35,980 nt of DNA from positions 1 to 35,980 of the forward strand of contig CANQDI010000004.1 of NCBI GenBank assembly GCA_947591575.1, in the 5' to 3' direction. Of the stretch, positions 18,604 through 35,940 are shown in pieces. Below the pieces are notes generated by a model. That model was not told the DNA's origin and searched no databases. It worked only from the letters and a program-made list of their open reading frames with translations. Every line of letters starts with the position of its first letter. The stretch's first letter is position 1. This stretch comes from an uncultured Bacilli bacterium (GTDB lineage Bacteria > Bacillota_I > Bacilli_A > RF39 > UBA660). A program made the position numbers and the translations under genes.

Positions 18604-19109
18604 TTTCTCACCTCAATGGTTCCATAATAACTGGCTTCTTCCACTTCAATATTTTTCATTTCTACAATGACACGATAAACCCCTGGTTGATTCTGTTCAA
18701 AAGAAATCGTTTCTAAATAATCTTTTAGTTCTCGGGTAAAACGGCTATCATCCTTAATATAGTTTTTAAAGGTTGTAATATCGTAGTCTGTAAGATAAAT
18801 CTTTTGAATATGATTAATAGCTTTAAAGTTTTCACAAAAATGAGAATCTGTATAATAACCACAATCTGTCACATCAAAATATCCATGAATGAATGTAAAA
18901 ATTTCAGGTTGCCCTTTATCCAAGATCATTTTACGAGCCCAATGCGCAACATACTTGGAAGAAACTGAATCATAGTAGGCTCTTCGCTCATATTCCGCCA
19001 CAACTGGAAAAAGATTGGTATAAAGAAGTGTTAAAAGAGTCATCATAAAAACACTGACAATTAAAGTTTCTACTAGGACAAATCCCTTCGTATTTTTGAT
19101 CACTTTCAT
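18600..19109 (-). CDS. Type IV pilin-like protein (minor pseudopilin)
   Basis: A 169-residue protein with the prepilin signature GFVLVETLIVSVFMMTLL, Glu at +5 after the Gly-Phe cleavage site, and a hydrophobic helix to about residue 32. The globular part has two cysteines (VTDCGYYTDSHFCENF) spaced for a disulfide bond. It is the first gene of a two-gene operon divergent from the assembly ATPase. It most resembles minor pilins with a long loop; no major pilin gene is visible here. Confidence 0.83.
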   Translation of the reverse strand: MKVIKNTKGFVLVETLIVSVFMMTLLTLLYTNLFPVVAEYERRAYYDSVSSKYVAHWARKMILDKGQPEIFTFIHGYFDVTDCGYYTDSHFCENFKAINHIQKIYLTDYDITTFKNYIKDDSRFTRELKDYLETISFEQNQPGVYRVIVEMKNIEVEEASYYGTIEVRK

Positions 19110-19121
19110 AAAACTCCCCTC

Positions 19122-19150
19122 TTGTCTATCTTCTAGAAATATTATATAAT
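19122..19150 (+). promoter_or_regulatory. Promoter of the type IV pilus ATPase gene
   Basis: TTGTCT (19122-19127), 17-bp spacer, TATAAT (19145-19150). The -10 is within the palindrome ATTATATAAT (19141-19150), which gives a TATAAT on the minus strand too, so the divergent pilin genes may use the mirror -10. Confidence 0.6.
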
Positions 19151-19189
19151 AAATTATAGTAAAATACTAGGGTAAAAGGAGGCTCATTT

Positions 19190-20536
19190 ATGGTTACTTA
19201 TGATTTTACAAAAGTACCTGTGATTAAAGTAGTCGATGATATTATTGTACAAGCAGCCAAAATGAATGCCAGCGATATTCACTTTGATCCTAGAGAAGAT
19301 GACCTATTAATTCGTATGAGAATTGATGGTGATTTACGAGATTATACCAGAATTCCAAAAGTTTATGAGCGTAATTTGATTACAAGAGTCAAACTTTTAT
19401 CCAATATGAACATCACAGAAAATCGTCTTCCTCAAGATGGTGCTATTAAAGGGGTCATTGGTGGTTTATCTTTAGATATGCGTGTTTCTACTCTTCCAAC
19501 CAATGAAGGCGAAAAATGCGTTATTCGTATTTTAGACTATTCTAGAAGTTTAGCAGGAATCGAATCATTGGGTTTTAGTAAACCAAATTTTGAAAAATTA
19601 AAGAAAATGATTGCTGTTCCTAATGGAATTATCTTAATTACAGGTGCTACTGGTTCTGGTAAGAGTACAACTGTCTACTCCATTTTACAACAACTTAATA
19701 AAGTCGAAACCAATATCATTACAGTAGAAGACCCTATTGAAATGAATCTTGAAGGATTAAATCAAGTACAAGTAAATAGTGAAATTGGACTTGATTTTGC
19801 TACTGTGTTACGTTCTATTCTTCGTCAAGATCCTAATATCATATTAATTGGTGAAATTCGAGACAGTGAAACTGCGAAAATTGCGGTTCGTGCTTCTATC
19901 ACTGGGCATCTTGTTTTATCTACTATCCATACAAATAACTCCTTAAGTACCATTGAACGTCTTTTGGACATGAATGTAGAACGGTACCTATTATCTACTG
20001 CACTTACTGGTATTATCTCTCAGAGACTTGCAAAAATGCTCTGTCCTCATTGTCGAGAAAAAGTACCTACAGATGCCTATCAAAAAAAAGTATTTAAACT
20101 AGCTTTAGGTATGGATATTAATGAAGTCTATAAAGCTCATGAAGAAGGTTGTAAAGAGTGTACACATGGGTATCGAGGACGAATTGCTATTCAAGAAGTG
20201 CTAGTTATTAATGATGAAATTCGCGATGCTTTAAATGATGAAAAATTGGAACGTGATTATTTAAGAAAAATGGTTTATACAAGTGATGTAATTACTCTAT
20301 TGCAAGATGGTTTAGGAAAAGTATTAGAAGGAGTTACCTCTTTTGATGAAATTTATCGCATTATTGATATAGATGATGATTTAGATGAAATGACAGAAGT
20401 AACCTTAACTCGAAAAGAACTACATGGAAGTAAGAAAAAGATTGCTCCACCACAAATTACGATTCCATCCCTTGACTCCTTTCTTGTTACCACTCCATAT
20501 CCAGGAACGCTACCCAATGAAAAGAAAAAATCTTAA
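19190..20536 (+). CDS. PilB/GspE/ComGA-type assembly ATPase
   Basis: Hexameric ATPase that powers pilus or pseudopilus assembly at the inner face of the membrane. The 448-residue protein begins directly with the N2 domain (MNASDIHFDPRED) and lacks the N1 domain of PilB/GspE, as ComGA does. Visible are Walker A GATGSGKST (152-160), the Asp box ITVEDPIE, Walker B ILIGEIRDSETA (217-228), the His box STIHTNN, and a tetracysteine zinc site at Cys285/288 and 321/324. A basic, Pro-rich tail of about 45 residues follows the usual end. AAAAGGAGG precedes the ATG. The platform protein and prepilin peptidase are not in the window. Confidence 0.94.
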   Translation: MVTYDFTKVPVIKVVDDIIVQAAKMNASDIHFDPREDDLLIRMRIDGDLRDYTRIPKVYERNLITRVKLLSNMNITENRLPQDGAIKGVIGGLSLDMRVSTLPTNEGEKCVIRILDYSRSLAGIESLGFSKPNFEKLKKMIAVPNGIILITGATGSGKSTTVYSILQQLNKVETNIITVEDPIEMNLEGLNQVQVNSEIGLDFATVLRSILRQDPNIILIGEIRDSETAKIAVRASITGHLVLSTIHTNNSLSTIERLLDMNVERYLLSTALTGIISQRLAKMLCPHCREKVPTDAYQKKVFKLALGMDINEVYKAHEEGCKECTHGYRGRIAIQEVLVINDEIRDALNDEKLERDYLRKMVYTSDVITLLQDGLGKVLEGVTSFDEIYRIIDIDDDLDEMTEVTLTRKELHGSKKKIAPPQITIPSLDSFLVTTPYPGTLPNEKKKS

Positions 20537-20581: not shown

Positions 20582-20615
20582 GAGTTATTTCAAAATATTA
20601 ATTTTGAGATAACTC
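20582..20615. terminator. Strong bidirectional terminator
   Basis: A 15-bp stem GAGTTATTTCAAAAT / ATTTTGAGATAACTC (20582-20596 and 20601-20615) with one G-T pair and a 4-nt loop. T-rich runs follow on both strands. The stop of the minus-strand glucosaminidase gene (20598-20600) lies in the loop. Confidence 0.85.
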
Positions 20616-23600
20616 CTTTTCTTTTTTGTCAGAAACATTTAATTCTACTCGATAACGAATATCATCTCGAATAGCAAAGGAATAGTGTTTTCCTTGATCA
20701 TCCCAAGTAACATCATCTAAGCTTCTTAAAAGTAACTCCGTTAATTCCCCAAAGTCGCTGACATTACTCTTTGTTGCAAGATAAATAGCATAGTTTCCAC
20801 TAGGAATATCTTTTAAACTTATTTTGGTGTCAAACCATGCTCGTGTTTTATCAAAGCCATCCTTTAAAGTCGTACCTACTGAATATAATCCTTTGGTACT
20901 ACTTCCTAATTGATAATGATATTTTTGAAAAGTTTTCGTATTTTCAAAGATAATCTCACGTGTAACGGAAGCACCAGGTGAAAGATCCATACCAGTAGAA
21001 TAAGAAGTACCACTAAGATGAAGTAATCCATCTTCAAATGCAAAGGTACGATATTGATTATAAATGTTATAGAGACTATTTGCTGTTTTAGGGGCGATTG
21101 CCTCACTACGAATAATCAATTCTAGTGCTGCACTTCCATCTTGATAATTATTACGAGCTGTAAGTACTTTTTCATCTTGATAAGTGGCTACTTGTGGCCT
21201 CAAAGTTTGATTGGTTACAAGTGTTTTAGCATAGACATGATCAATCGTTGTCACAACGTAAATTCGGTAATCTCCATCTTTTAAGGAACGAATATCAATA
21301 CTACCTTGGAACCATGAATATGTATAATCATATTGATCTTTACTATAAACTGGTCTACTCATTTCTTTTTCATCACGAATTTGTGTCAATTTTTGAGAGG
21401 TAATTTCATGTGTCGTAAGATTTTCAAATTGTAATTCAAAAGTAATGGTTTGATCTTTCGTATGATTGATTCCTTCAATCGCATGATATCCTTTTATCAT
21501 TAATTTACCATCGACTTCTTTCAAAGAATCAAGGAAGAATTTTCCATTCTCTAAAATAGGAGCATCCATGTCTTCTACTACATTTACTTTTATTGTAAGT
21601 GTAGTTGTTTGTTGATATTGATCTTTTACTTCATAAACTACAAAGTACGTACCTGCTACCTTTGTATTGACTGTATTTTTAGAAACGACAATAGAACTTG
21701 TAATATCTCCATCTTCTTTATCTGTTGCACTTACACCTTCTAATGGATTGAAAGAACTATTGATAAGAATGCGCTTATTAGATGCTTGAATTTCAGGTTT
21801 CTGGTTGGCTGTTACTGTTACAGTAATCGTTTTGGTTACTTTTTGGCCACTCCTATCAGTTACTTCATAAGTGACTTGATAATTTCCTGGTACATCAAGA
21901 TTTACCGTACTACTAGCCACTTTGACTTGGCTTGTAATATCTCCATCTTCCGTATCGCTTGCTTTGACGCCTTCCAGTGGATTGAAAGAGGTTCCTTGAA
22001 TCACTGTCTTATCACCTACAGTAATGACAGGAAGTTGATTAGGTACAGTAGATTGTTCTTTGGTAATCAATACTCCTGAATAGGATTGTAACATCCAACC
22101 ATAACGAGCTTGTGTACCAGAAACATCTAAAGGAACTTGGTACCAAAGTTGATTACCTACTACTTTTTCATCTAAGATAGGAATATATGAATTTGTATAT
22201 TGTGTACCAATCATCGTACTTGATTCTGTTGAATCACTCCAAATTTCTGTATACCAGTTATAAGCTGGATTTAAAGTAATCGTTGTTTTTCCATAAGGAA
22301 GCCCAACGAGCTGCAAGTTAGAGGCACTTGCCCACTCTTTTTGGTCTTTACTATAATCAGATGTAATGAGATAAGATACAGCTTGATTATTTTGATCATA
22401 TGCAATTGCATAAACCATGACATAACGATCTTTCAAAAGAGTCTTTCCTGTTTTAGAAGTAAGAGATGCATCATAGTAGTAATTTGTATCATTTGTACTG
22501 ATCGCTACTTTTGGTTTCAATACAGTATCTTCAACTAAAAGATCATATTCATAATTTTGATCTTGATATGCTGTCGTTTCATTTGGAGAAATATATCCAT
22601 TTTTACCTTGATTAATTTTTTGAATATAAGCAGCTGGCACATAGACCGTTCCTTGCCAGTTATAATCACCAGAAGTGATCTCATTATAATTTTCATCAAT
22701 ATTTAAGTCACTTACAATTTGATACCAAGTTGTATTGCCGTCTACTGCAGTTCCTGTTTTTTCTCCTACGATAACAACTGCATCTTCAGCTTCTGGATAT
22801 TGGTATACAAACTTAGCATCCACATTTGCATCTGCTTTTGCATCCACTACACCTTTTGTAACACCTAATTGATAATAATCATAATCCTGTAAGCCCTTTG
22901 CTTTATCAAAAGCATAATAGTGACTTGCCATCTTTTCGCTCCAGAAAGCATCAGAGGCATATTTGACATTCATTCCACTCAGTTTATTTCCAAATTGTGG
23001 TCCAAAATAACGCCAATCACGTGGATGGGCATATCCATAAGTAATCCATTTAGATGCATATCCTAAAATACTAGAAGCAAAACTTGCATACCATTTCGCA
23101 GATTCATTAGGACTACTATCAACAGCATTTAATCCAAAACCATTGTTTTTATTGATTGCTAGATCACTCGTTCCATTGCCTGTTTCATTTCGACTTAAAC
23201 TAAAGGAAAGAAGTGCATTGACACCATATTTTTCTTGAGCATGATAGAAAAATGTTCCTTTTCCATAAAGTCGCGAAGTATTGTTTTCAGCAAGATGTCC
23301 ATAAACATCACCTGTAATTCCTAAAGAAGAACGAATATATTCATCAATATTGACACTAGAGTAATTTGTTTTTGTATGATTAGATAAATACATATAATAG
23401 TTATAATATGGCTGATCTTTGTTCACTGCATGTTGATAAGTTCCTGTTTTATAATCTTTAATCATCGTTGTTAAATCAGTATAGAAGTAATGTCCATCGT
23501 AACTATAGTAAGTTCCCTCATTTAGCATCGTTGGCTTTGGTCCAATCGTGCTGCCACTGGAACCATAATAAGCGTTTTGGATTTTTGCAACATAATTATG

Positions 23601-24158
23601 ACGAATGGATTCACTTGTAACTGTATAGCTACTACTAGATTGAACCCAAGTAATAGGTACTACTTCATAATTGATTTTTTCAATCCATCCAGTTCGATCG
23701 CCTATTTTAACCTGGGCTACCCAAGTATTTTTATTAGATGAGTATGTCGCATCGATTAGGGCACCATCAATTCCACCATAGGCAGAAGCTGCCCACATAT
23801 AGGTAAATGCATAGGTTAAATTAGGATTCGTATAAACATTTGTCATATCTGGAGATACAACTAAATCAAGTAAAGCTACATTCGCATCAATAATGGCTGT
23901 TTTGCCATCTACTTTTGTCATAATGGCAAGATCATCTGCTCCGTTTTGTACCATCCAATTTTTGGCATCATTATACGAACTATGACAACTTGCTGTAATA
24001 ATTTGTCCATCGCGATGAAAAGATGCCACTTCAAAAGTATTACAAAGAGATCGATATTGATAATCAGATGAAGAAAAAGCTTTTGCATCTTGCGGATACA
24101 GTATAAAGCATAAAACTAAGAATGTAACAATACCGAGTGTCCATCTTTTTTTCATCAT
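20598..24158 (-). CDS. Secreted glucosaminidase-like cell-wall protein with Ig-like repeats
   Basis: A 1186-residue exported protein likely to cut or bind the wall. A signal peptide covers residues 1-27 (cut after AKA). Next come a bacterial SH3-like part (about 30-190) and a GH73-type N-acetylglucosaminidase domain (about 230-440: YYSYDGHYFYTDLTTMIKDY, FFYHAQEKYGVNALLSFSL, then NKNNGFGLNAVDSSP and DWRYFGPQFGNKLSGMNVKY), with the probable catalytic Glu at 325 in SRNETGNG. Further SH3-like segments (450-700), two tandem DUF5011-like Ig domains (about 707-864) and an unassigned C-terminal domain follow. There is no LPXTG or GW anchor. Start: AAGGAGG lies 5 nt before ATG 24158 and 8 nt before ATG 24155; either could serve. 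Confidence 0.9.
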   Translation of the reverse strand: MMKKRWTLGIVTFLVLCFILYPQDAKAFSSSDYQYRSLCNTFEVASFHRDGQIITASCHSSYNDAKNWMVQNGADDLAIMTKVDGKTAIIDANVALLDLVVSPDMTNVYTNPNLTYAFTYMWAASAYGGIDGALIDATYSSNKNTWVAQVKIGDRTGWIEKINYEVVPITWVQSSSSYTVTSESIRHNYVAKIQNAYYGSSGSTIGPKPTMLNEGTYYSYDGHYFYTDLTTMIKDYKTGTYQHAVNKDQPYYNYYMYLSNHTKTNYSSVNIDEYIRSSLGITGDVYGHLAENNTSRLYGKGTFFYHAQEKYGVNALLSFSLSRNETGNGTSDLAINKNNGFGLNAVDSSPNESAKWYASFASSILGYASKWITYGYAHPRDWRYFGPQFGNKLSGMNVKYASDAFWSEKMASHYYAFDKAKGLQDYDYYQLGVTKGVVDAKADANVDAKFVYQYPEAEDAVVIVGEKTGTAVDGNTTWYQIVSDLNIDENYNEITSGDYNWQGTVYVPAAYIQKINQGKNGYISPNETTAYQDQNYEYDLLVEDTVLKPKVAISTNDTNYYYDASLTSKTGKTLLKDRYVMVYAIAYDQNNQAVSYLITSDYSKDQKEWASASNLQLVGLPYGKTTITLNPAYNWYTEIWSDSTESSTMIGTQYTNSYIPILDEKVVGNQLWYQVPLDVSGTQARYGWMLQSYSGVLITKEQSTVPNQLPVITVGDKTVIQGTSFNPLEGVKASDTEDGDITSQVKVASSTVNLDVPGNYQVTYEVTDRSGQKVTKTITVTVTANQKPEIQASNKRILINSSFNPLEGVSATDKEDGDITSSIVVSKNTVNTKVAGTYFVVYEVKDQYQQTTTLTIKVNVVEDMDAPILENGKFFLDSLKEVDGKLMIKGYHAIEGINHTKDQTITFELQFENLTTHEITSQKLTQIRDEKEMSRPVYSKDQYDYTYSWFQGSIDIRSLKDGDYRIYVVTTIDHVYAKTLVTNQTLRPQVATYQDEKVLTARNNYQDGSAALELIIRSEAIAPKTANSLYNIYNQYRTFAFEDGLLHLSGTSYSTGMDLSPGASVTREIIFENTKTFQKYHYQLGSSTKGLYSVGTTLKDGFDKTRAWFDTKISLKDIPSGNYAIYLATKSNVSDFGELTELLLRSLDDVTWDDQGKHYSFAIRDDIRYRVELNVSDKKEKELSQN
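21565..22038 (-). repeat. Two tandem DUF5011-like Ig repeats (coding)
   Basis: Two successive domains of about 78 residues share SFNPLEGV-x-A-x-D-x-EDGDITS and a YEV-x-D-x-YQQ/RSGQ-type end. They represent an internal duplication in the secreted wall protein, with boundary near 21805. Confidence 0.8.
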
Positions 24159-24186
24159 CCAATCCTCCTTTTTATTATCTATCACT

Positions 24187-24215
24187 ATTATACAACGAAA
24201 AAAAAGAGAGTTCAA
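24187..24215 (-). promoter_or_regulatory. Promoter of the secreted glucosaminidase gene
   Basis: Minus strand TTGAAC (24215-24210), 17-bp spacer, TATAAT (24192-24187). The -35 box lies partly within the 3' arm of the terminator that ends the upstream polysaccharide operon. Confidence 0.75.
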
Positions 24216-24266: not shown

Positions 24267-24728
24267 TTAATGATGTTTTTCTAAGAAAATCTTTCTGGTT
24301 ATAAAGTTAAATACCATAACAATAATAGTCGCAATTACCTTAGCAAGTAAATAATAAATAGCTATCAGTTTGATGCATAACCACATAATAAAATCATTTA
24401 AAAATAATCCAATTACACTTAATATAATGAAAAGGACAAATTGTCTTTTTTGGTCTTTTTCATGATCCACCTCAAAAACCCATTGAACACTTGCTATATA
24501 ATTGTAGATCACTGAAATACTAAATGAAAGTGTATTCGATAGTACAACAGGAAAATGAAGGAACTCTTTAAAAAGATATAGAAAGACAAAATCAATTATA
24601 GTGGCAATACCACCTACAATGATAAATTTAAAGATTTGAATACATAACTTTTCATGATCTTCTTTTAATGTTATATGAAAAAACTTCAAACACCTTCGAA
24701 CAAATTTAGCTATTTTATCTTGTTTCAT
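24267..24728 (-). CDS. GtrA-like four-span membrane protein
   Basis: A 153-residue protein with four membrane helices after a charged N-terminus (about residue 30 on). The family motif FIIVGGIATIIDFVFLYLF, followed by SNTLSFSISVIYNY and NFITRKIF at the end, identifies GtrA/DUF-type proteins. Members are thought to help translocate or present polyprenyl-phosphate sugars; in mycobacteria the relative Rv3789 is linked to arabinan synthesis. It is last in the tagH-tagG-gtrA transcript. AAGGAGG lies 8 nt before the ATG. Confidence 0.88.
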   Translation of the reverse strand: MKQDKIAKFVRRCLKFFHITLKEDHEKLCIQIFKFIIVGGIATIIDFVFLYLFKEFLHFPVVLSNTLSFSISVIYNYIASVQWVFEVDHEKDQKRQFVLFIILSVIGLFLNDFIMWLCIKLIAIYYLLAKVIATIIVMVFNFITRKIFLEKHH

Positions 24729-24741
24729 CTATAAAACCTCC

Positions 24742-25515
24742 TTAAAACTCCTCTACAAAACTTTTCTCTAATTTCTTGAAGATTTTATATCCACCAATTA
24801 AAGCAACAACACTGATGATACCCCAAATCCATAACATACGAAAGTCTGGCATTTCATGATAATAAAGAATTGCTCGGTAAGCTTCAACTAATTGTGCCAT
24901 TGGATTGAATTGTAATATCCATTGAAACTTTGCCGGTAACATACTTGCTTGATACACAATAGGAGTCCCATAAAAAGCAAGGGTCAAAAAAACACTTACG
25001 AAGTGATCAATATCTCTTACAAATACAGTGAGTGCTGATAAAATAAAAGTAATGGCAAGAGTTAAAACAGCTTGAATAAGGATTAGAAGTGGCATCAAAA
25101 GAAGATGATAAGAAAAACCAACACCACTGACTAAGATAAAAACAAACATAATGACACACGTAATTAAAAAGTTAACTAATTGTGAAAAGGTAATGGAAAT
25201 AGGAATAATTTCTCTTGGAAAATACACTTTTTTTAAAATATTTCCATTGGCAACAACACAACCTGTCCCAGACTGAATAGCGGTAGTAAAAAAATTCCAA
25301 GGAATTAAGGCAACAATCATAAAAATAGTATAGTTTTCAACATTAACCCTTAAGATATATGGAAACACAAATGCATAAACAGCTAACATTAATAGTGGGT
25401 TTAAAAAAGTCCAAAGAATTCCTAACCAAGATCCCTTATATTTTCCTCTTATTTCTTTTTTAATATTATTTTTTAATAGCTCACGATACTGGTATAACTC
25501 ACGAAACACTTTCAT
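24742..25515 (-). CDS. tagG: ABC-2 permease of a polysaccharide/teichoic acid exporter
   Basis: Membrane subunit of an exporter that flips lipid-linked polymers outward. The 257-residue protein has six membrane segments and the family motifs LLKNNIKKEIRGKYKGSWLG near the start, then ILWTFLNPLLML, and NPMAQLVEAYRAILYY near the end. The ATG at 25515 has GGGTGA 4-5 nt upstream; an in-frame GTG at 25527 overlaps the end of tagH. The gene symbol follows the closest known system (TagG/RfbA-type), and the exact substrate is not known. Confidence 0.9.
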   Translation of the reverse strand: MKVFRELYQYRELLKNNIKKEIRGKYKGSWLGILWTFLNPLLMLAVYAFVFPYILRVNVENYTIFMIVALIPWNFFTTAIQSGTGCVVANGNILKKVYFPREIIPISITFSQLVNFLITCVIMFVFILVSGVGFSYHLLLMPLLILIQAVLTLAITFILSALTVFVRDIDHFVSVFLTLAFYGTPIVYQASMLPAKFQWILQFNPMAQLVEAYRAILYYHEMPDFRMLWIWGIISVVALIGGYKIFKKLEKSFVEEF

Positions 25516-25519
25516 TCTA

Positions 25520-26263
25520 TCACCCACAAACTCTCAAGTATTCTTCTAATACTTCATCAACAGCACCATCTTTTCGAATTTCTCCTTGATATAACCAAAC
25601 AGCGCGATCACAGAATTTTTTTACCTGATCCATACTATGGGTTACAATCACAATGGTTTTGCCTGCTTTTTTTAATTCCATTAATTTATCAAAGCATTTT
25701 TCTTGAAAATGTTGATCTCCAACTGCTAAAATTTCATCAATAAGCAAGATTTCTGCCTGCACATTGATCGCTACAGAAAATGCAAGACGCATATACATAC
25801 CAGATGAATATGTTCTAACAGGATTATCTATAAATTCTCCTAGTTCTGAAAAAGCAATAATCTCATCAATTTTAGCATCGATTTCCTTCTTTGTGAGTCC
25901 AAAGATAGATGCATTAAAATAAATATTTTCTCTACCTGTAAAATCATCATGAAATCCAGCACCTAGTTCTAGTAAAGAGGTTAATTTCCCATGTGTTGTA
26001 ATTTTTCCTTTATTTGGATAGATAATTTTTGTCATTAATTTTAATAATGTTGATTTTCCACTTCCATTGGTTCCAATTAAAGCAATACTTTCCCCTTTAT
26101 GAATCGTTAAATTAATGTCTTTTAACACCGTTAGTATATCATTTTTTGCTCGACTACTTTTTGAGAAAAAAAGGATTTTTTCTTTTAATGTATTCGCCTT
26201 ATCGTAATATAATTTAAACGTCTTAGTTACATTTGTAACTTTAATTGCGATATTTTTCTCCAC
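25520..26263 (-). CDS. tagH: ABC ATPase of a polysaccharide/teichoic acid exporter
   Basis: ATPase partner of the permease directly downstream. Walker A is GTNGSGKST, the signature YSSGMYMRL, Walker B ILLIDEILAVGD and the switch His in VTHSMDQV. The N-terminal TFKLYYDKANTLKEKI is typical of TagH/Wzt-type ATPases. It is 247 residues and lacks the C-terminal extension that in TagH or Wzt recognises modified chain ends. The GTG at 26263 is chosen because AGAGGT lies 6 nt upstream; an ATG at 26281 has no ribosome binding site. Confidence 0.92.
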   Translation of the reverse strand: MEKNIAIKVTNVTKTFKLYYDKANTLKEKILFFSKSSRAKNDILTVLKDINLTIHKGESIALIGTNGSGKSTLLKLMTKIIYPNKGKITTHGKLTSLLELGAGFHDDFTGRENIYFNASIFGLTKKEIDAKIDEIIAFSELGEFIDNPVRTYSSGMYMRLAFSVAINVQAEILLIDEILAVGDQHFQEKCFDKLMELKKAGKTIVIVTHSMDQVKKFCDRAVWLYQGEIRKDGAVDEVLEEYLRVCG

Positions 26264-26307
26264 AGCAATACCTCTTTTCATAAAATATAGGTGTTTTCTA
26301 TAGTATC

Positions 26308-26366: not shown

Positions 26367-27359
26367 CTATTTCTTTGGTTTTTCTTCCAATATTTTTTTG
26401 ATTTCTTTTGTCACAACTTTATATCCCTTTTCTGATAAATGAAGTCCATCGGTTGTATAAGATAAATCTAGATTTTTATTTTCATCCATTAATACAGAAT
26501 ACATATCCAAATATTGATAATGATTCTTGGTACTTTTTTGCTTTAACATTTTATTGATATTTCTAATTCGTTTATTATCTCGCTCTCCCACCATCCAATC
26601 AATTACAACATCATTATCTGTTGTCGCATTTACGGGATAAATTGATTCAACATAGATAAGAGCATTGGGCCTATTTTGGTAAATTTTATTGGTAATCGTG
26701 ACAATATCATTGACGATTTCTTTATCGGTTCGATGAGATAAATCATTCGTACCTACTAAAAGAAAAACTTTTGTAGGATTATAATCATATACTCTCTTTT
26801 TTAGGTCACTTATTATGCTATAGGCTGTATTACCAGAAACACCACTATTGACAGTAGGAAGATTACCATAATATGAATCGAGTTGATAAAATTCTGTAAT
26901 ACTATCCCCCAAAAAGACATAATTTTCTACCTTTTGATCCATTGGTTTTGCATCTATCTCTTTTGTAAAAATGAAAAAAAGAAATAGAAAAAGTAAGACA
27001 ATAAAGAGTGTAAAACTAAATACTTTTATAAAATTACTTTTCTTTTTTCGTTTTTGCTCTTGCTTGATCTCTTTTACAATCGTATCTATATTTTTGGTAA
27101 TAACAACTTGTTTATTGGCAGCAATCTTTTGATCAATTCGATCCTGACTATGATAGACAATAATATTTTTTTTCTGAGCTAATAGATAATATATTTTTTC
27201 CTTATTATAGTCAGTAATAACAAGACGACTTTTCTTACTATTTTTCCTTGTGTAAAGTTCTTCGCCTTCTAAACAAAAAAATTTACTATTTTTTATCTTT
27301 GACGATATTTTTTTAATGAGTTCCTTACTCTCTTCATTTTTCATAGAAATTAAGATCAT
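26367..27359 (-). CDS. Membrane-anchored SGNH hydrolase/acyltransferase
   Basis: Probably adds or removes O-acyl groups on a cell-surface glycan. Residues 1-108 form a cytoplasmic, basic region that I do not recognise (contains LVITDYNKEKIYYLLAQKKN). One membrane helix (110-131) follows, then an extracellular SGNH domain with Ser153 in FLGDSITEF, block III GTND at 203-206 and the Asp304/His307 pair in TDGLHLSEKGY. It is 31 bp downstream of an acyltransferase-3 gene, and such pairs work together in O-acetylation (OatA has both parts in one protein). The N-terminal cytoplasmic domain is unusual for this family. Confidence 0.88.
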   Translation of the reverse strand: MILISMKNEESKELIKKISSKIKNSKFFCLEGEELYTRKNSKKSRLVITDYNKEKIYYLLAQKKNIIVYHSQDRIDQKIAANKQVVITKNIDTIVKEIKQEQKRKKKSNFIKVFSFTLFIVLLFLFLFFIFTKEIDAKPMDQKVENYVFLGDSITEFYQLDSYYGNLPTVNSGVSGNTAYSIISDLKKRVYDYNPTKVFLLVGTNDLSHRTDKEIVNDIVTITNKIYQNRPNALIYVESIYPVNATTDNDVVIDWMVGERDNKRIRNINKMLKQKSTKNHYQYLDMYSVLMDENKNLDLSYTTDGLHLSEKGYKVVTKEIKKILEEKPKK

Positions 27360-27389: not shown

Positions 27390-28451
27390 TTATAACTCTT
27401 TTTTTATTTTTATTGCAGAAAAATTTATTTTTTGAATCCATGGAATGATTTTTTTCGTAAAAAAGGTATAACTACGTTCTAAAAGGATAGCACCAATCGT
27501 AGTCATAAAAAGATTCATAAAAAGACAAATTCCAAATTTCATAACATCGTTTTCAAATGAAAGATACGGTAAAATAAAATATAAAAGGGATGCAGATATG
27601 CCTTGCATAAAATAAAAGTAAATCGCATTTTTTCCAATATAATTCAGTTTATTTTCTTTTTGAATTTTTAAATGGCGAAAGAGATACCAATAAAGAATAA
27701 GAGATGGTAAAGACACAAATAAATATGGAAAAGATGGTGGAAATTTTGTAGTTTGAAAAGCAGTAATATCAAGGTGTAAAGAAGAAAAAACAAGACAAAG
27801 TAAACTGACTGCAATAAGCTCTAATAGAATAAGCTGCTTCTTATTTTTTAAAGAATAGTAGTGAGCTAAATAACCCAATATAAAAAGAATAGAATAAAAA
27901 GATAAATAAGTATCAAAAAACAAAAACGTTGCTCCTGAAAAAGATTGATAAGCAAAAATAAGAAAAAGGATTTCTAGAACTATTTTTAAATACTTTAAAA
28001 CATTTTCTTTTCCGAAATACTGAATTGTACAAATCGTAATGGAACAAAAAATAGAGACTTTCATATACATGATAATATACCAAATAGAACCACTTACTAC
28101 ATTTAAAGCATTTGAGTTAGGAAAAGAATAAAAGAACCAAGAAAAAAAATCTAAAAAATGAAAATCTGATCGAAAAAAGACAAGAATGATCAGGGTATAA
28201 AAAAGAAGAAAGAAACACCATTTTTTCCAAATGGTCCATAGTCCTTTAAGTGATTTGATAACAGAATTGCTATAATGAAAGGATATTCCTGAAATAAAGA
28301 TAAATAAAGGAACATCTATCAATAAAGTCAAATTTATAAACCAGCTAGGTAGATAAGTTTCTCCAGACCAAAAAGCTGTATGGATTACAACAATCCATAA
28401 AGCTGCAATGGCTCTTAAAAAATCAATTGTATAATTTCTTGTTTTTTGCAT
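27390..28451 (-). CDS. Acyltransferase-3 family membrane protein
   Basis: A 353-residue protein with about ten membrane helices. The N-terminus shows the family signature IDFLRAIAALWIVVIHTAFW, with the likely catalytic His22, and LTLLIDVPLFIFISGISF follows, as in OatA/WecH-type transferases that move acyl groups across the membrane. It lacks a fused SGNH domain; the gene immediately downstream encodes one. The ribosome binding site is weak (GAGAG about 12 nt away). It lies 42 bp after the HAD gene and is probably in the same transcript. Confidence 0.9.
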   Translation of the reverse strand: MQKTRNYTIDFLRAIAALWIVVIHTAFWSGETYLPSWFINLTLLIDVPLFIFISGISFHYSNSVIKSLKGLWTIWKKWCFFLLFYTLIILVFFRSDFHFLDFFSWFFYSFPNSNALNVVSGSIWYIIMYMKVSIFCSITICTIQYFGKENVLKYLKIVLEILFLIFAYQSFSGATFLFFDTYLSFYSILFILGYLAHYYSLKNKKQLILLELIAVSLLCLVFSSLHLDITAFQTTKFPPSFPYLFVSLPSLILYWYLFRHLKIQKENKLNYIGKNAIYFYFMQGISASLLYFILPYLSFENDVMKFGICLFMNLFMTTIGAILLERSYTFFTKKIIPWIQKINFSAIKIKKEL

Positions 28452-28493: not shown

Positions 28494-29069
28494 TTATTTT
28501 AAATCATCTTTCCTTACTTTTTGAATGGTACCTTTTTTTACAAGGTAAGCTTCTTTTGCATAAACAAACATAGGCCGATCAGCCTGAATAGAATCTGAAT
28601 AAAATTTTTGAATCGTTCCTTTTGGATATTTTTCCTCATATCTTCTTACTTTTTCAACATCATGACAATTAAGAGAATTCAATTTCCCTGTCTTTTTATC
28701 TACTTTGGTTGCAATGACTTCTACTTTTAATTTTTTCTCTAGAGGTTTTAAAAGAAACTCTGGAGATGCTGAAATAATCAAATCTGTTTTCTCTTTTTGT
28801 TCTAAATACCAAGGTGCAATTTTCTTTTCATGCTCATTCCAAAACGCTTTCACATCATCATCAATATGATCCATTTTTTTTAAAAAAGAGAAAAATTTTT
28901 CTTTTAAATACGTTTTATTTTTTATTCGAAACAAATAAAGCACCACGCCAAAAATTTGAATGGGTAAACACAAGAGTACTTTTTTATTTCGCATCAAACA
29001 AAAACGATAAAAATCAACACTAGAATCTCCATTATAAATAGTTCCATCAAAATCATAAACATTGATCAT
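28494..29069 (-). CDS. HAD-family phosphatase, likely acts on polyprenyl-phospho-sugar
   Basis: A 191-residue HAD phosphatase: motif I YDFDGTIY with nucleophile Asp6 and Asp8, motif II ISASPEF, a Lys region, and motif III/IV FYSDSIQADRPM. A hydrophobic stretch lies in the cap (LLCLPIQIFGVVLYLF), which could associate with the membrane. Its ATG overlaps the UbiA stop (ATGA). This pairing is the reason to suggest that it removes the 5-phosphate from polyprenyl-phospho-ribose-5-phosphate. HAD domains fused or adjacent to this UbiA type are known, but the substrate here is inference. Confidence 0.85.
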   Translation of the reverse strand: MINVYDFDGTIYNGDSSVDFYRFCLMRNKKVLLCLPIQIFGVVLYLFRIKNKTYLKEKFFSFLKKMDHIDDDVKAFWNEHEKKIAPWYLEQKEKTDLIISASPEFLLKPLEKKLKVEVIATKVDKKTGKLNSLNCHDVEKVRRYEEKYPKGTIQKFYSDSIQADRPMFVYAKEAYLVKKGTIQKVRKDDLK

Positions 29070-29938
29070 AATAAATATAACAATCCTCCCAATACAACAA
29101 TATATAGGAGTCCTGCAAAAATGAGTTTTTTATCTGATAGAATTACTTCAATAGGATCTCCATGAGAATTTCCTTCAATATCGAGACTATATAACTGTAA
29201 AATAATCATCAGTAAAGGAATTGTCCAAAATAAGTAATCATGACCAATTCTTGCAACTGTTACAGGATCAACACACCATAATGTATAAGAGACAATGGCA
29301 AGTGATAAAGAGACATACATATTTTTGTCTAAGAAATCTTGATTATAAAATTTTAACACTTTTCGACCGACTTCTCCATTTTTAATGATCTCATTTCTTC
29401 TTTTTCCAAAACCCAAATAGAATGAACCAAAAATAATCATAAGATAAAGATATTTAGAAACATCAATTTGTGTAACAACGCCACCATACATGACTCGAAG
29501 CACAAAACCAATTACGATGGTAACAACATCCATAATAGGAATATGTTTTAACCATTTGCTATATAGAACGTTCATCAATAAATAAGTGAGTGGAATTACA
29601 AAGACAAAAATATTATGACTTTCTATATAAAGTAAATACATGCATATGATAAGACAGAAAGCAATCAAAAACGTGACAAAATAAGCTTGTTCCTTTGAAA
29701 TAACACCCGCTGCAAGTGGACGTTTCTTTTTGACTGGATGAAGTTTATCTTTTTCTATATCATTAATATCATTTAGTACATAAACGATACTGGATGTAAA
29801 AGAGAAAACAAAGAAAGCAAGTATAGCGGTAAAAATATAGGATCCATCAAAAAGATGAATACTAAAGAAGATAGGAAGAAAAATAATACCATTTTTGAGC
29901 CAATGTTTTATTCGAATAAGTTGAAGATATTTACTCAT
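29066..29938 (-). CDS. UbiA-family polyprenyl-phosphate phosphoribosyltransferase
   Basis: An integral membrane prenyltransferase of 290 residues with eight to nine helices. The first metal motif, from Asn56, is NDINDIEKDKLHPVKKKRP, i.e. NDxxDxxxDxxHPxKxxRPxAxG. Together with IRIKHWLKN near the start and FGKRRNEI plus FYNQDFLD later, this is the signature of decaprenyl-phosphate phosphoribose synthases such as Rv3806c rather than of quinone UbiA or heme CyoE. The expected reaction is polyprenyl phosphate plus PRPP giving polyprenyl-phospho-ribose-5-phosphate. GGAGG precedes the ATG. It overlaps the upstream glycosyltransferase by 8 bp. Confidence 0.92.
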   Translation of the reverse strand: MSKYLQLIRIKHWLKNGIIFLPIFFSIHLFDGSYIFTAILAFFVFSFTSSIVYVLNDINDIEKDKLHPVKKKRPLAAGVISKEQAYFVTFLIAFCLIICMYLLYIESHNIFVFVIPLTYLLMNVLYSKWLKHIPIMDVVTIVIGFVLRVMYGGVVTQIDVSKYLYLMIIFGSFYLGFGKRRNEIIKNGEVGRKVLKFYNQDFLDKNMYVSLSLAIVSYTLWCVDPVTVARIGHDYLFWTIPLLMIILQLYSLDIEGNSHGDPIEVILSDKKLIFAGLLYIVVLGGLLYLL

Positions 29939-31661
29939 TGATTTCTACCTCCAATCGCCATGAATACATATATCGCATTTTTTCTTGATCAATTTGATCT
30001 ACCACTTGATAGTGAATATTGTGATCATTTAACGTGTAATAATAACCGTATAAATCTGATGTTGATATTTTTAATTTTACATTATCCATATTAGATAATT
30101 CTACTAAATCATCATTAATTTCTTTGAATGTCACTATCTGTTTTGAACTAGCATAAAGAAATATTCCTACATTCATACATAAGATCAAAACCGTTATCCA
30201 AATGCATCCTCGTAACCATTTATTCTTATGAATAGTTTGAAGAACATATCCTCCAAGCAAAATAGCACCTACTGGAAGTAGATAAAACTGTGGTACATAC
30301 CTAGCCCACCAAGATTCTTTCAATAATATCATACTAAGTAAAATAGAAAGAATAGGTAATATTACATAAAAGCAAGATTTCTTTTTCTTTTTGATAAACA
30401 TTACAAAAGCGATTCCAAAGGTAATAATGCTAGCTAATAACCCTAAAGCAAATAATGGACCAAATCCCCCTATTCTAATATCAGGTACATTTAACTCATC
30501 TATTTCAGAACGATATACTTTAAATGGAAGTTTTAAAATAGGTGCTTTATCATAATATGTTACATTTTTTGTTCTAGAAAAAAGAGAAATCATCCATTTT
30601 TCAATAGCTGTTTTATTTTCAAAAGATTTTGGTTGCATCGTAGTAATAATATCTACTTTACCCTCTCCCATTAAAGGATATAAAGGATTATGATGATCTA
30701 CCAAATTTTTGATATAACTATTAGAACCAACTATTAATATGGCTATGAGGAAAGTAAAAATGAAATGGAATGTAATATTTCTAAAGCGTAATGGAAAATC
30801 TTTTTCTTTGCGATACTTCCAAAACCAGTAAAAATAAAAAATAGCTGCAATAACTCCAGAACACATTAATCCTGTAAATTTAAGATTCGAAAAAATAGTA
30901 CAACATGCAATCATCATAAGCCAAAGAAATGGATTCTGTTTTTTCATTGGATTCACTAAAAACAATAAGAAAAGTTCTATTCCAAAGAAAATACCCATGA
31001 TACCATCCACATAGTAAGAAAAAATCTGAGAAAGAACTACTGGATTGAATACAATGAGAGAAGATACTAAAATGCTCCATTTCTTATCAATTATTTTTCT
31101 TAAACAATAATAACTTATTATCCATAGCATCAGAGAAAAAATAAAGGTAATACATTTACCACTTTCGATGTTTCCTGTCATATTATAAATTGTCGCAGCA
31201 AGAATCCAGGTGGCTTTTGGATAATGTTCAATCCATAAATCAATGTTTGTATCCTCTGCGATTGGAATGACATTTTTATTTTTCTCCTGAAATGATCTAC
31301 TATCTTCATAAAGAGGATTCCAACCATTTTTGATAAATGCAATCGCCGTTTTATGATAAGAATTCCCATCACATGTTATATCAAATGTCTTGTTATACAG
31401 AAAAGGTAAGACTAATAATAAAAATAGGAAACCAAATAAAATGTATTTTTGATGAGGATTAGATTTTCCTTTCTTCAAGTAAACGATGATAGGAAGAACG
31501 ATACTGATGATTTGAATCAATGTAAAACAGTTTTTTGTTAAATTTAAAAATTGAAAGATTGTATAAAGTAGTAAAACCGATAAAAAATATCCAGATAACA
31601 TTACTACTAAATACATAGATTCATTTCTTTTTGGTAATGTCATAGTTTTTTCATTTTTCAT
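29931..31661 (-). CDS. GT-C membrane glycosyltransferase
   Basis: A 576-residue protein with about eleven to thirteen membrane helices. It has the GT-C architecture: an Asp in the first large external loop (FDITCDGNSYHKTAIAFIKN) after the first helices, further loops with ESWWARYVPQF, and a short soluble C-terminal part. Enzymes of this type (ArnT, Emb and related) use polyprenyl-phosphate sugars as donors outside the membrane, which fits the UbiA and HAD genes that follow. AAAGGA precedes the ATG. The sugar and acceptor are unknown. Confidence 0.82.
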   Translation of the reverse strand: MKNEKTMTLPKRNESMYLVVMLSGYFLSVLLLYTIFQFLNLTKNCFTLIQIISIVLPIIVYLKKGKSNPHQKYILFGFLFLLLVLPFLYNKTFDITCDGNSYHKTAIAFIKNGWNPLYEDSRSFQEKNKNVIPIAEDTNIDLWIEHYPKATWILAATIYNMTGNIESGKCITFIFSLMLWIISYYCLRKIIDKKWSILVSSLIVFNPVVLSQIFSYYVDGIMGIFFGIELFLLFLVNPMKKQNPFLWLMMIACCTIFSNLKFTGLMCSGVIAAIFYFYWFWKYRKEKDFPLRFRNITFHFIFTFLIAILIVGSNSYIKNLVDHHNPLYPLMGEGKVDIITTMQPKSFENKTAIEKWMISLFSRTKNVTYYDKAPILKLPFKVYRSEIDELNVPDIRIGGFGPLFALGLLASIITFGIAFVMFIKKKKKSCFYVILPILSILLSMILLKESWWARYVPQFYLLPVGAILLGGYVLQTIHKNKWLRGCIWITVLILCMNVGIFLYASSKQIVTFKEINDDLVELSNMDNVKLKISTSDLYGYYYTLNDHNIHYQVVDQIDQEKMRYMYSWRLEVEINE

Positions 31662-31700: not shown

Positions 31701-32651
31701 TTAATTCCAAAAAAAATGATAGAAAAGGCAATATAATTTTGATAATCCTTTATTTTTTTCAATATTTCTTTGTAAAAAACTCCTTGATTCATAATATTTG
31801 TTCTTTTTATAATCAGGAATTTCTTTTTTCATATAAGAAAATGCTTCATCGATAAATTTCATTGCTATTTTTGGGTCTTTTTGATTTCTCTGTTGAATTG
31901 TATAATTTGTAATCATTCTAATCGTTAATTTATCAAGATCCTCTTTTAAATAGGATTCTTTTTTCCATTTCTTACGGATGAGATCAATGATTCTTAAAAT
32001 ATCAAAAATGCGTTCATCACGAATAGTTGTTTCACTGTTTTGATGCATCACATAATTGATGAGGGGCTTCTCTACTTTTCCGACCTTTTTCGCATATAAC
32101 AGACTATCTACCACAAAAGGGGCATCCTCATATTTTAAATCTTCTATAAATCGAATATGATGCTTAGAAAGAAGAGTACTCTTATATAACTTATTCCAAG
32201 GAGATAAATTAACACTTTTTAATAGAGTTGGCATCTTTTTTAAAGTAGTATTTTTAAAAGAAGGCAATTTTTCTATTTTTGATAAACCATTTTGAATTTG
32301 ATAATAATCACAAAGAACTAAATCTAAGTCTTCTTGTTCTGCTTTTTGGTAGAGCACTTCACAAGCATCTTCTTCCAAATAATCATCACTATCTAAGAAC
32401 ATGATATACTTTCCAGTTGCCTTTTGAATTCCAAAATTTCTTGTTTTTCCAATTCCTTGATTTTTATTTCGAAAATACTTGATTCGATGATCCTTATATT
32501 TTAGAATTTTTTTTTCAGTATCATCGGTTGAACCATCGTTTATCAATATAAACTCCAACTCTTTTTTTGTTTGAGTAAGAAGAGATGTTAGACACCGATC
32601 AATATATTTTTCAGCATTATAAATCGGTACAATAATACTCATATCAGGCAT
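31701..32651 (-). CDS. Family 2 glycosyltransferase
   Basis: A 316-residue cytoplasmic GT-A transferase. The N-terminus SIIVPIYNAEKYIDRCLTSL, then NDGSTDDTE, NFGIQKATGKYIMFLDSDDYLE and the later KYEDAPF region are the canonical GT2 parts, with DSDD as the DxD-like metal/sugar nucleotide site. It has AGAGGTGA 4-6 nt before the ATG. It follows a related but clearly distinct GT2 gene by 21 bp; both probably build repeat units on a lipid carrier. Confidence 0.9.
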   Translation of the reverse strand: MPDMSIIVPIYNAEKYIDRCLTSLLTQTKKELEFILINDGSTDDTEKKILKYKDHRIKYFRNKNQGIGKTRNFGIQKATGKYIMFLDSDDYLEEDACEVLYQKAEQEDLDLVLCDYYQIQNGLSKIEKLPSFKNTTLKKMPTLLKSVNLSPWNKLYKSTLLSKHHIRFIEDLKYEDAPFVVDSLLYAKKVGKVEKPLINYVMHQNSETTIRDERIFDILRIIDLIRKKWKKESYLKEDLDKLTIRMITNYTIQQRNQKDPKIAMKFIDEAFSYMKKEIPDYKKNKYYESRSFLQRNIEKNKGLSKLYCLFYHFFWN

Positions 32652-32672: not shown

Positions 32673-33593
32673 TTATCTTATCTTAAATCGATTAAAAAGT
32701 CTAGGACTTATTTCTAAGAGTATTTTCTTGATTTTTCTTTGAAATGTATCGGTTAAAAGATCATCATATACTTTCTTTTTCTTGATTCTTTTTAGATATA
32801 ATTGATAATCTTTTTTATTTAATTCACAAATTTTTAGTATCATACTATTTGCAATAAAACTTTTGAAAATTGTAGTATCAACATCTACTTTTTCAATCTC
32901 TTTTTTTAAAAATAAATAATGATGATAAAAATCGTTCACTTTCTTTTTTGTAAAGCGATCTTCATGATTATTCATAATACTACCACTTCGGCGATAATAG
33001 TTATAACCGATATAAGAAATGGAATGTACTTTTTTGGCTTTTATAATAACAAGAGGAATCAATCCAAAATCTTCATGAACTGTATGCGCTTGAAAAGCAA
33101 ATTTTTCTTGTTGATAATATTTTCTTCGATACGTATAACACCAAGCATTTTCAACAAAATGATATTTTGATAATAACGAAAAAGCATCTTCCCCATTCTT
33201 ATTGAAAAAAGGAATTTCTTCATATTTCGTTACTTCTCCTTGATCCGTAACTGTCTGGACTTGAAAACGAACAAGATCTGGTTGATCCGAAATATTTTTT
33301 GCTAAATTCTTCAGTAAATCTTTTTCAATAAAGTCATCGCTATCAACAAAAACGAGATATTCGCCTTTTGCTTTTTCAACCCCAATGTTTCTAGCAACAC
33401 TTACTCCCTCATGTTTTTGATGAATTACTTTGAAAGGATATTTTTTCACAAAATCCATACTATGATCTGTAGAGCCATCATCAACAATGATCACTTCATA
33501 ATCTTGATAAGTTTGTTTCATAATACTTTGTAAGGTTCTATCAATATAGTCTTCTACATTATATACTGGAATAATAATACTAAACTTTGGCAT
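32673..33593 (-). CDS. Family 2 glycosyltransferase
   Basis: A 306-residue GT-A transferase with SIIIPVYNVEDYIDRTLQSI, VDDGSTDHS, ARNIGVEKAKGEYLVFVDSDDFIE and VHEDFGLIPLVI. The start codon overlaps the upstream stop (TAATG) and the ribosome binding site GAGGTGG lies in the last codons of the fusion gene, so the two are translationally coupled. Substrates are unknown; it is a paralogue of the next gene, suggesting an old duplication. Confidence 0.92.
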   Translation of the reverse strand: MPKFSIIIPVYNVEDYIDRTLQSIMKQTYQDYEVIIVDDGSTDHSMDFVKKYPFKVIHQKHEGVSVARNIGVEKAKGEYLVFVDSDDFIEKDLLKNLAKNISDQPDLVRFQVQTVTDQGEVTKYEEIPFFNKNGEDAFSLLSKYHFVENAWCYTYRRKYYQQEKFAFQAHTVHEDFGLIPLVIIKAKKVHSISYIGYNYYRRSGSIMNNHEDRFTKKKVNDFYHHYLFLKKEIEKVDVDTTIFKSFIANSMILKICELNKKDYQLYLKRIKKKKVYDDLLTDTFQRKIKKILLEISPRLFNRFKIR

Positions 33594-35902
33594 TAAACCA
33601 CCTCGTCAAATAGATTTTCAAACTGTTTTCTTTTTTGCTTTTGAATTTTTTCAAAATCTATTTTTTTGCTTCTTGGCTTCTCTTTGAGAATTTCTTTGAC
33701 TTCTTCCACCATTTTCTTTTCATCTTTTGAAATAATATCGGCGTAGTCTTTTCCCATTTGAAAAAATTCATCAGAAACATCAATCGTTGTAATAATCCTT
33801 TTTTCTAAAAGAATTGCTTCTAAATAAATGACAGGAAAACCTTCATAATCAGAAGTTAAAAGAATATAATCAGCCATTTTCATATAAGGATAAGGATTCA
33901 TTTGCTTTCCTAAAAAATATACTTTTTTTTCTAGTTTTTCTCGAGCAACAAGATCTTTATACATTTTCTCATCTTTTCCTGTTCCCACAATCCATAGCTT
34001 TGTATTTAAAATATTTTGAACAAGATAAATGGCTCTTTTTAATTTTTTGGAGGAATCATCTAATCGACCTACAAAAACAAATAAAGTTTCTTTAGGCTTT
34101 GTAAGCGAAATCGGTTCCAGACTTTTTTTCTTAATTTCTTCAATTGGAATAAAATTGTTGATGACTTTTATTTTTCCTTCTAAGGAAGGATATATTTTTC
34201 GAAAAGATGCAGCTGATTCATTAGAGACAAACAAAATATGACGGTACTCTTTTATATGTCTTTGATCAAAGAATTCTCTAAATTTTTCTTTAGATGGATA
34301 AACATATCGATAGTCACTGTGAACATAAAAAGCATTGTTAGAAGAAGCCACTTGCGCAATCTTATTTGAACTAAATGAATAAGTTGTATAACAACAACTA
34401 AAATCATAACAATGATAGTAAAAAAGAGTAAAAAAGAACTTTCGCATACAATTGATTATTTTTCGAATAAAAACATTAGAGTGATTACTTACTTTCAATT
34501 CTTTTATCAAAACATCTGGCTTTATTTTTTTTAATAGAGGTCCTTTTGCTTCTTCTAACATACATGTTACTTCATATTTTTTAGTATCAATGTTATTTAA
34601 CAGATTTACTTGTGAATTTTCAATACCTCCAATTTCCATATTCACGCCCGCGAATAATAGTGATTTCTTCTTTCTCTTTGCAAGAGAGAGAATAATGATA
34701 CAAGCAATAAGAGATACAGAAGGAGCCGTGATAATATGCCCTGTAAAAAAAGATAAGAACAAGATAAAGGCAAACGATAAGAGTAACATATATCTTTCAT
34801 AATGATGTTTTCCGTTTTGTTTTAATACATTCATGATTACAAAGGAAAAAACACCAAAAAACAAGATAAATCCTACAAGTCCATGATGAAAATAAATATC
34901 AAAGTAGTCTATTTCTACTAATTTTGTTGCTTTCTTTTGATGAAAATAACCTATTCCAAAGAGTTGTTGGTAAAAAGGTGCTTGTTGATATAATTTTTTT
35001 TCTTTATAAAAAAAGGAAAAACGTTGACTAAAAATAAAATGATCTATTAATTTTTGGTCTTCAAATACTTCAGTAATATTCTGTATTTTTAAGTAATCAA
35101 GATGTGTTTGAATGTTCTTATAAAAGTTTGTCTTTGGTAAAAGAAAAGAAAAACCAATCGATAGTATAATGAGAAGTGAAAAAGAAAGAGCCACTACTTT
35201 ATATCGTTTTTTCTTCATACAATCAATCCAAAAGTAAAGAATTGTAAACCCTATCGTTATCAATAAAGTTAAAAGAGGTGTTTTGGTTCCTATTGTTAAG
35301 ATGACAACTATATACATGATAGCTACAACAACGGATATGAAAAAAAACTTCTTATCGTAAAATAGAAGAAACATTATAGGTGTCATGAGAGAGATAATCC
35401 CACTAATTTCATTCGCGGAGTGAAAGAAACCTAATGTTCCTGCTTTAGTAATTTCATATGATTGATACCCAATATGAAATAATGAAGGTACAAAAATAAA
35501 GAACAAATACATCAATAAAGTAGAAAATAAGACCATCTTACTTATTCGAATTGAATCTTTTAGATAATAGAAAGATATTAATAAAATTGGAAAATAAAAT
35601 GTTTTTACAAGGCCTTGAAGTTCTTGAAAAAGAAAAACATTTTTTTGGTATAAAAATAACCCTAAAAGATAAAAAATGCTATAGCAACCAAACAAAAGGT
35701 AAAAAATCAATGCTTTCTTTTGATGAAATACAAATGGTGTTACTATCATGATAAATGCTAAAAATAATACTCTTACAATGATACCAAATGTGATATTAAT
35801 ATTCCATATATGAATACTGATTCCTGTAATTAAATCAATGATTGGTTGAGCTAAAATAAAAATAGATAAGATCATATTAATATTTTTCTTTATAAAATCC
35901 AT
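33593..35902 (-). CDS. Polymerase/ligase-like membrane protein fused to GT4 glycosyltransferase
   Basis: A 769-residue two-part protein. Residues 1 to about 408 contain ten to twelve membrane helices and O-antigen ligase/Wzy-type features (FFHSANEISGIISLMTPI, GTKTPLLTLLIT, LFGIGYFHQ, DIYFHHGLVGFILF). A basic linker near 410-415 (AKRKKKS) leads to a GT-B fold glycosyltransferase of family 4 (GVNMEIGGIENSQVNLLNNI; VFVGRLDDSSKKLKRAI; DYEGFPVIYLEAI with the E-x7-E-like motif). No stop or frame break lies between them. The ATG at 35902 has AGGA 5 nt upstream; a GTG at 35914 is in the ribosome binding site. It is the first gene of the locus seen here. Confidence 0.9.
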   Translation of the reverse strand: MDFIKKNINMILSIFILAQPIIDLITGISIHIWNINITFGIIVRVLFLAFIMIVTPFVFHQKKALIFYLLFGCYSIFYLLGLFLYQKNVFLFQELQGLVKTFYFPILLISFYYLKDSIRISKMVLFSTLLMYLFFIFVPSLFHIGYQSYEITKAGTLGFFHSANEISGIISLMTPIMFLLFYDKKFFFISVVVAIMYIVVILTIGTKTPLLTLLITIGFTILYFWIDCMKKKRYKVVALSFSLLIILSIGFSFLLPKTNFYKNIQTHLDYLKIQNITEVFEDQKLIDHFIFSQRFSFFYKEKKLYQQAPFYQQLFGIGYFHQKKATKLVEIDYFDIYFHHGLVGFILFFGVFSFVIMNVLKQNGKHHYERYMLLLSFAFILFLSFFTGHIITAPSVSLIACIIILSLAKRKKKSLLFAGVNMEIGGIENSQVNLLNNIDTKKYEVTCMLEEAKGPLLKKIKPDVLIKELKVSNHSNVFIRKIINCMRKFFFTLFYYHCYDFSCCYTTYSFSSNKIAQVASSNNAFYVHSDYRYVYPSKEKFREFFDQRHIKEYRHILFVSNESAASFRKIYPSLEGKIKVINNFIPIEEIKKKSLEPISLTKPKETLFVFVGRLDDSSKKLKRAIYLVQNILNTKLWIVGTGKDEKMYKDLVAREKLEKKVYFLGKQMNPYPYMKMADYILLTSDYEGFPVIYLEAILLEKRIITTIDVSDEFFQMGKDYADIISKDEKKMVEEVKEILKEKPRSKKIDFEKIQKQKRKQFENLFDEVV

Positions 35903-35940
35903 ACCGTTCCTCACACTTCTATTATTTTCTTCTTATGACC

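Follow-up and report, generated by a model that had tools for sequence, protein, structure and literature searches.

The window analyzed here, the whole stretch of 35,980 nucleotides at positions 1 to 35,980 of contig CANQDI010000004.1, comes from an uncultured Bacilli bacterium of the RF39 lineage UBA660 (assembly GCA_947591575.1). Its minus strand carries three translationally overlapping genes, encoding a GT-C-fold membrane glycosyltransferase of 576 amino acids (31661..29931), a UbiA-superfamily protein of 290 amino acids (29938..29066) and a HAD-family phosphatase of 191 amino acids (29069..28494). The GT-C and UbiA genes overlap by 8 nucleotides, and the UbiA and HAD genes by 4 nucleotides. 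The list of open reading frames (ORFs) thus bears out the coordinates (28494-31661) and overlaps of the preliminary description, which had been made from the sequence alone and had proposed a pathway for a polyprenyl-phosphate-linked pentose.

Identity of the UbiA protein

The UbiA protein, a predicted polyprenyl-phosphate phosphoribosyltransferase resembling decaprenyl-phosphate phosphoribosyltransferase (DPPR synthase), contains exactly the two motifs on which that proposal was based, NDxxDxxxDxxHPxKxxRPxAxG (N56-D57-xx-D60-xxx-D64-xx-H67-P-x-K70-xx-R73-P-x-A-x-G) and FGKRRNE (beginning at F177). Within these motifs, N56, D57, D60, D64, H67, K70, R73, P74, G178, K179, R180 and E183 are invariant in 14 UbiA homologues from the same family. 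The protein matches PF01040 of Pfam with 62.6 bits. A profile search against DPPR synthase models, suggested earlier as a check, placed it with these enzymes: the two best NCBIfam models are both DPPR synthases (NF008977, 221.6 bits, and a second model, 182.3 bits), followed by a model of HAD-UbiA fusion proteins (158 bits). Models of other UbiA families, comprising quinone, heme and geranylgeranylglycerol-phosphate (GGGP) enzymes, scored 52.4, 36.8, 33.3 and 29.0 bits against cut-offs of at least 180.

Based on sequence comparison with the PDB, the top match is the Mycobacterium tuberculosis DPPR synthase Rv3806c (8j8j, E=1.5e-35, residues 5-285), which is 30% identical to the window protein. 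Rv3806c also ranks first in a profile search of the PDB (4e-51), with the next UbiA enzyme at 1.5e-12. The structure paper on Rv3806c names the residues that contact phosphoribosyl pyrophosphate (PRPP) and the lipid phosphate (PMC10994848), and by alignment 11 of these 13 residues are identical in the window protein. The remaining two are conservative replacements, Q135 to N123 and Y157 to F145, both of which also occur in other DPPR-like proteins. Four of the contact residues (K28, Y70, K87 and K191) persist throughout the DPPR-like proteins examined but are lost in Escherichia coli UbiA, MenA and CyoE; we regard this pattern as the most discriminating evidence that the predicted reaction is phosphoribosyl rather than prenyl transfer. 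In a phylogenetic tree the window protein groups with DPPR-like proteins and apart from E. coli UbiA, MenA and CyoE (support 95/97, on long branches).

Phosphatase, glycosyltransferase and candidate flippase

The HAD protein is of the HAD-IB type (PF12710, 54.3 bits). All of its catalytic residues, D6, D8, S102, K140, D159 and D164, are invariant in 28 homologues. An AlphaFold model with a mean predicted local distance difference test (pLDDT) score of 96.4 has a fold resembling a Bordetella HAD protein without annotation and SerB-type phosphatases. We examined 94 UbiA loci, the window included. Some contigs are represented twice among them (L023 and L102, for instance), and the counts given here are therefore of loci and not of independent events. 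Of 63 HAD domains of the window type near UbiA, 49 are encoded by the next gene downstream and 5 just upstream of the UbiA gene, that is, 54 are adjacent to it, and this adjacency spans Bacilli, Clostridia and Saccharibacteria. An unverified 6.6-kb record labeled 'Bacteriophage sp.' (MT837543.1), which could be bacterial DNA, carries UbiA, HAD and epimerase-like genes consecutively.

The GT-C protein has no match in Pfam, and its profile finds no match among PDB sequences, so that fold comparison alone is informative. An AlphaFold model built from 26 homologues (pLDDT 90.6) was matched by Foldseek to ArnT (5ezm, E=4.2e-4, probability 1.00), ALG12, AftA, Pmt4 and AftB. The proven ribofuranosyltransferase ORF12 likewise has ArnT as its closest relative of solved structure (PMC11127046). 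In the loop after the third helix, D94, D98, N100, Y102 and K104 are invariant, and this segment is a candidate catalytic loop.

Gene fusions in related loci join these functions physically. We observed HAD-GtrA fusions next to UbiA in 13 ORFs, including some from Clostridium puniceum and Desulfosporosinus; in three of these (L021:6442-7410, L024:3452-4543 and L026:8051-9001), both domains exceed the Pfam cut-offs. The papers that we found make no mention of such proteins. Elsewhere a single ORF combines HAD with a protein homologous to the GT-C of the window (L023:10647-12959, found in L023/L102, as well as L034, L035 and L059). These fusions tie a phosphatase, a protein of a flippase family and a transferase to the UbiA gene. 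Together with gene adjacency, they support two further suggestions of the preliminary description, namely, that the HAD protein may remove the 5-phosphate and that the GT-C protein, with a predicted role in extracellular transfer of a lipid-linked pentofuranose, may use the resulting sugar.

The window encodes one GtrA-family protein (24728..24267, minus strand; PF04138, 90.9 bits), and the sole other GtrA gene of the genome lies among GT2 genes on contig C21. On the Lactococcus cremoris plasmid pF27D, genes for a membrane protein, UbiA, HAD and GtrA are consecutive; the membrane protein has no match to the window GT-C profile. Dairy-associated and mobilizable, pF27D carries this cassette within a locus of the capsule type. 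In spirochaetal and proteobacterial relatives, as in Citrobacter youngae, a small EamA/SMR protein takes this place beside UbiA. That the GtrA protein acts as the flippase for a lipid-linked ribofuranose is a good inference from its family and these gene arrangements.

Predicted pathway and alternative explanations

We consider it likely that the operon encodes a lipid-linked pentofuranose glycosylation system in which polyprenyl-phosphate-ribofuranose decorates an exported polysaccharide. In the predicted pathway, ribose would be loaded onto a membrane lipid, probably undecaprenyl rather than decaprenyl, and the HAD protein would take off the 5-phosphate to give polyprenyl-phosphate-ribofuranose. 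The GtrA protein is the most likely flippase to carry this intermediate outward, and on the outer side of the membrane the GT-C protein would attach the ribofuranose to a glycan. This acceptor is most likely the polymer made by the neighboring GT2/GT4 enzymes and exported by the ATP-binding cassette (ABC) transporter of the same locus.

Several observations weigh against this assignment. The UbiA score of 221.6 bits is 12 bits short of the curated NF008977 cut-off of 234 bits, so NCBI would not automatically name the protein by this model, although it is still the best family. The HAD profile has no match, even at E=10, to the HAD part of Vibrio or Salipiger HAD-UbiA fusions. Homology to these fusion domains was thus rejected, and the phosphatase activity proven for Citrobacter cannot be transferred by homology; the window protein appears to represent a different HAD lineage that may carry out the same step, as an unrelated PAP2 phosphatase does in actinobacteria. 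The fold match of the GT-C protein is moderate, with a template modeling (TM) score of about 0.4 (0.42), and the GtrA gene lies 3.8 kb downstream of the trio, within the same locus. Searches of the genome with PF13793, TIGR01251 and a family-specific profile from relatives detected no PRPP synthetase (Prs), and no other type I phosphoribosyltransferase (PF00156) was found there, so that the donor supply is unproven. Nor was the expected co-occurrence of prs and UbiA in the family borne out: prs is present in 62 of 145 family genomes, namely, 7 of the 14 that carry UbiA and 55 of the 131 that lack it (Fisher p=0.58). In a further UbiA-positive genome, prs is cut off at a contig end.

An assembly gap, another route to PRPP or another donor are possible causes of the failure to detect prs. 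The source is a metagenome-assembled genome (MAG) in 73 contigs with 95.9% completeness, in which a single gene could be missing. Many auxotrophies have been described in the reduced gut Bacilli of the order RF39 (PMC6784871), and we infer that the source genome is of this type. It is quite unlikely that the UbiA protein works without PRPP synthetase or PF00156 enzymes, obtaining ribose from another donor or using PRPP that is imported or otherwise made. The more specific proposal that it retains fold and site but uses a non-PRPP sugar donor, in a cell that makes no PRPP, would accord with the missing enzymes and the independence of prs and UbiA in the family. It also has a mycobacterial precedent in a pentose linked to lipid without PRPP (5-methylthioxylose, mentioned in PMC11127046). 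We nevertheless judge it very unlikely, given that the residues contacting pyrophosphate, ribose and 5-phosphate in Rv3806c are all kept or conservatively replaced (Q135N, Y157F) and that the adjacent HAD phosphatase implies a phosphorylated sugar.

A different sugar would leave the pathway itself unchanged. As had been noted, DprE1 and DprE2 are absent from the window. In the genome search then suggested for both, the DprE1 part gave no candidate: PF01565 retrieves MurB alone (305 amino acids, encoded next to murG), and the 11 PF01565 hits in the 14 UbiA-positive family genomes are all MurB-sized. A DprE2-type short-chain dehydrogenase/reductase (SDR) was looked for at the locus only, and none was seen there. 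Since neither the genome nor its UbiA-positive relatives yielded a DprE1, arabinose is unlikely and a donor pathway of the decaprenylphosphoryl-arabinose (DPA) type was rejected, favoring the earlier view that the product may stop at ribofuranose, which is the simplest product. Epimerization of the lipid-linked ribose before transfer, to give arabinofuranose or xylofuranose, can be proposed by analogy to UbiA loci of Salipiger and Flammeovirgaceae, in which genes for an FAD-oxidoreductase and an SDR follow UbiA, and to the C. youngae O2 system, in which a single epimerase, ORF13, yields xylofuranose (PMC11127046). The PF01565 results and the lack of any SDR or epimerase gene between 24 and 36 kb of the window, the region to which the SDR/epimerase search was confined, make this unlikely here; an epimerase encoded at a distance might yield xylofuranose.

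The remaining alternatives reassign single proteins. A PgpC- or SerB-like housekeeping lipid or serine phosphatase placed by chance could explain a weak match of the HAD protein to phosphatidylglycerophosphatase C (26 bits) and its similarity in fold to SerB structures. Chance placement is highly improbable, given that 54 of the 63 domains are encoded immediately beside UbiA, that the Lactococcus plasmid shows the same gene order and that fusions to GtrA and GT-C exist. For the UbiA protein, superfamily membership is compatible with an ordinary quinone, heme or archaeal-lipid prenyltransferase. Such a function is hardly conceivable with at most 52 bits to those families against 221.6 bits to DPPR synthase and with K28, Y70, K87 and K191 present, and it is contradicted by these data and the PDB matches to Rv3806c.

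Genomic setting and relation to known systems

The trio sits inside a minus-strand polysaccharide locus that also includes the GtrA gene. Adjoining it are genes for the two components of an ABC exporter, namely, a Wzm/TagG-like ABC-2 permease (24742..25527; PF01061, with a weak match to the galactan permease model NF050109) and a Wzt/TagH-like ATPase of polysaccharide or teichoic acid export (25520..26281; PF00005, top NCBIfam models of TagH type, below cut-off). In 21 related loci, a homologue of the ATPase is encoded no more than five genes away from UbiA. Between the exporter and the trio are an SGNH/GDSL hydrolase domain protein, possibly involved in O-acetyl transfer or removal (26367..27359; PF13472, 73.2 bits), and an acyltransferase-3 membrane protein, possibly acting in glycan O-acetylation (27390..28451; PF01757, 61.2 bits). 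On the other side of the trio, two GT2 glycosyltransferases (31701..32651 and 32673..33593; PF00535, 137.3 and 124.3 bits, respectively) are followed by a single ORF that combines an O-antigen-ligase-like membrane domain with a GT4 glycosyltransferase (33593..35914; PF13425, 155.2 bits, and PF00534, 66.6 bits). Homologues of this fusion also occur in UbiA neighborhoods of relatives.

Housekeeping genes resembling mutS, gmk and deoB on the same contig indicate that it is chromosomal. A promoter scan gave 74 sites compared with 73.6 in shuffled sequences, and with no excess of sites transcript boundaries cannot be set. Within the family, UbiA is patchy (14 of 145 genomes) and absent from one congener examined, which suggests that it is gained and lost as a cassette. 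Next to the glycan locus, positions 20598..24215 encode a glucosaminidase of 1205 amino acids with bacterial Ig-like domains. Farther away, pseudopilin-like ORFs accompany a T2SSE-type ATPase gene (18097..20536; PF00437, 402 bits) and are perhaps related to competence, and a helix-turn-helix protein of approximately 255 amino acids (5929..6696) resembles, by eye, the protein encoded immediately downstream of UbiA at loci L058 and L064.

The window operon belongs to the three-component pentofuranose systems, a pathway type published in 2024. Biochemical precedent comes from Citrobacter, where the same order of steps is carried out by a UbiA-type synthase with a HAD domain, a flippase and a GT-C enzyme (PMC11127046). 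The C. youngae O1/O2 components are ORF15, a PPPRS with a PRP domain, the flippase ORF14 and the GT136 enzyme ORF12 (PMC11127046). The same paper already lists Gram-positive candidates, Bacillus included (PMC11127046). Similar to the window, the C. youngae locus combines a UbiA-type phosphoribosyltransferase, a HAD phosphatase and a GT-C protein with ABC-transporter-dependent polysaccharide synthesis, and its ribose version has no DprE1/E2. By contrast, the window HAD protein is encoded by a separate gene and belongs to another HAD lineage, the flippase candidate is GtrA rather than SMR/EamA-like, and the host has no Gram-negative outer membrane. Its glycan, presumably Gram-positive, likewise distinguishes it from the published systems.

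The mycobacterial DPA pathway comprises Rv3806c, Rv3807c, DprE1/E2, Rv3789 and the Emb/Aft enzymes, with Rv3789 being a GtrA homologue (PMC7389260). Common to both are a DPPR synthase homologue that retains the PRPP site, a GtrA-family accessory protein and the use of GT-C enzymes, whereas the window has a HAD in place of a PAP2 phosphatase, no DprE1 and one GT-C protein. The predicted pathway matches that of DPA up to decaprenylphosphoryl-ribose, but with DprE1 searched for and absent it does not count as a DPA pathway. GtrA/GtrB/GtrX systems and the Gram-positive GtcA/YfhO-type glycosylation with C55-P-hexose (PMC7389260) likewise employ a lipid-phosphate sugar, a GtrA-family flippase and an extracytoplasmic GT-C enzyme, but the donor synthase of the window is UbiA-type and not a GT2 enzyme. 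A distinct locus with GT2 and GtrA genes is present on contig C21 of the genome.

In conclusion, we report a well-supported example of lipid-linked pentofuranose glycosylation from the Firmicutes, with relatives in Clostridium, in Desulfosporosinus and on a dairy Lactococcus plasmid, the last of which makes the pathway testable in a safe and cultivable host. The natural HAD-GtrA and HAD-GT-C fusions of relatives offer an inexpensive lead: they link GtrA-family proteins with a pentofuranose donor and are thus relevant to the disputed function of mycobacterial Rv3789. The window places a gut bacterium with a tiny genome among the very probable carriers of a lipid-ribose gene set, as a good fresh example of a known system type rather than a novel one.

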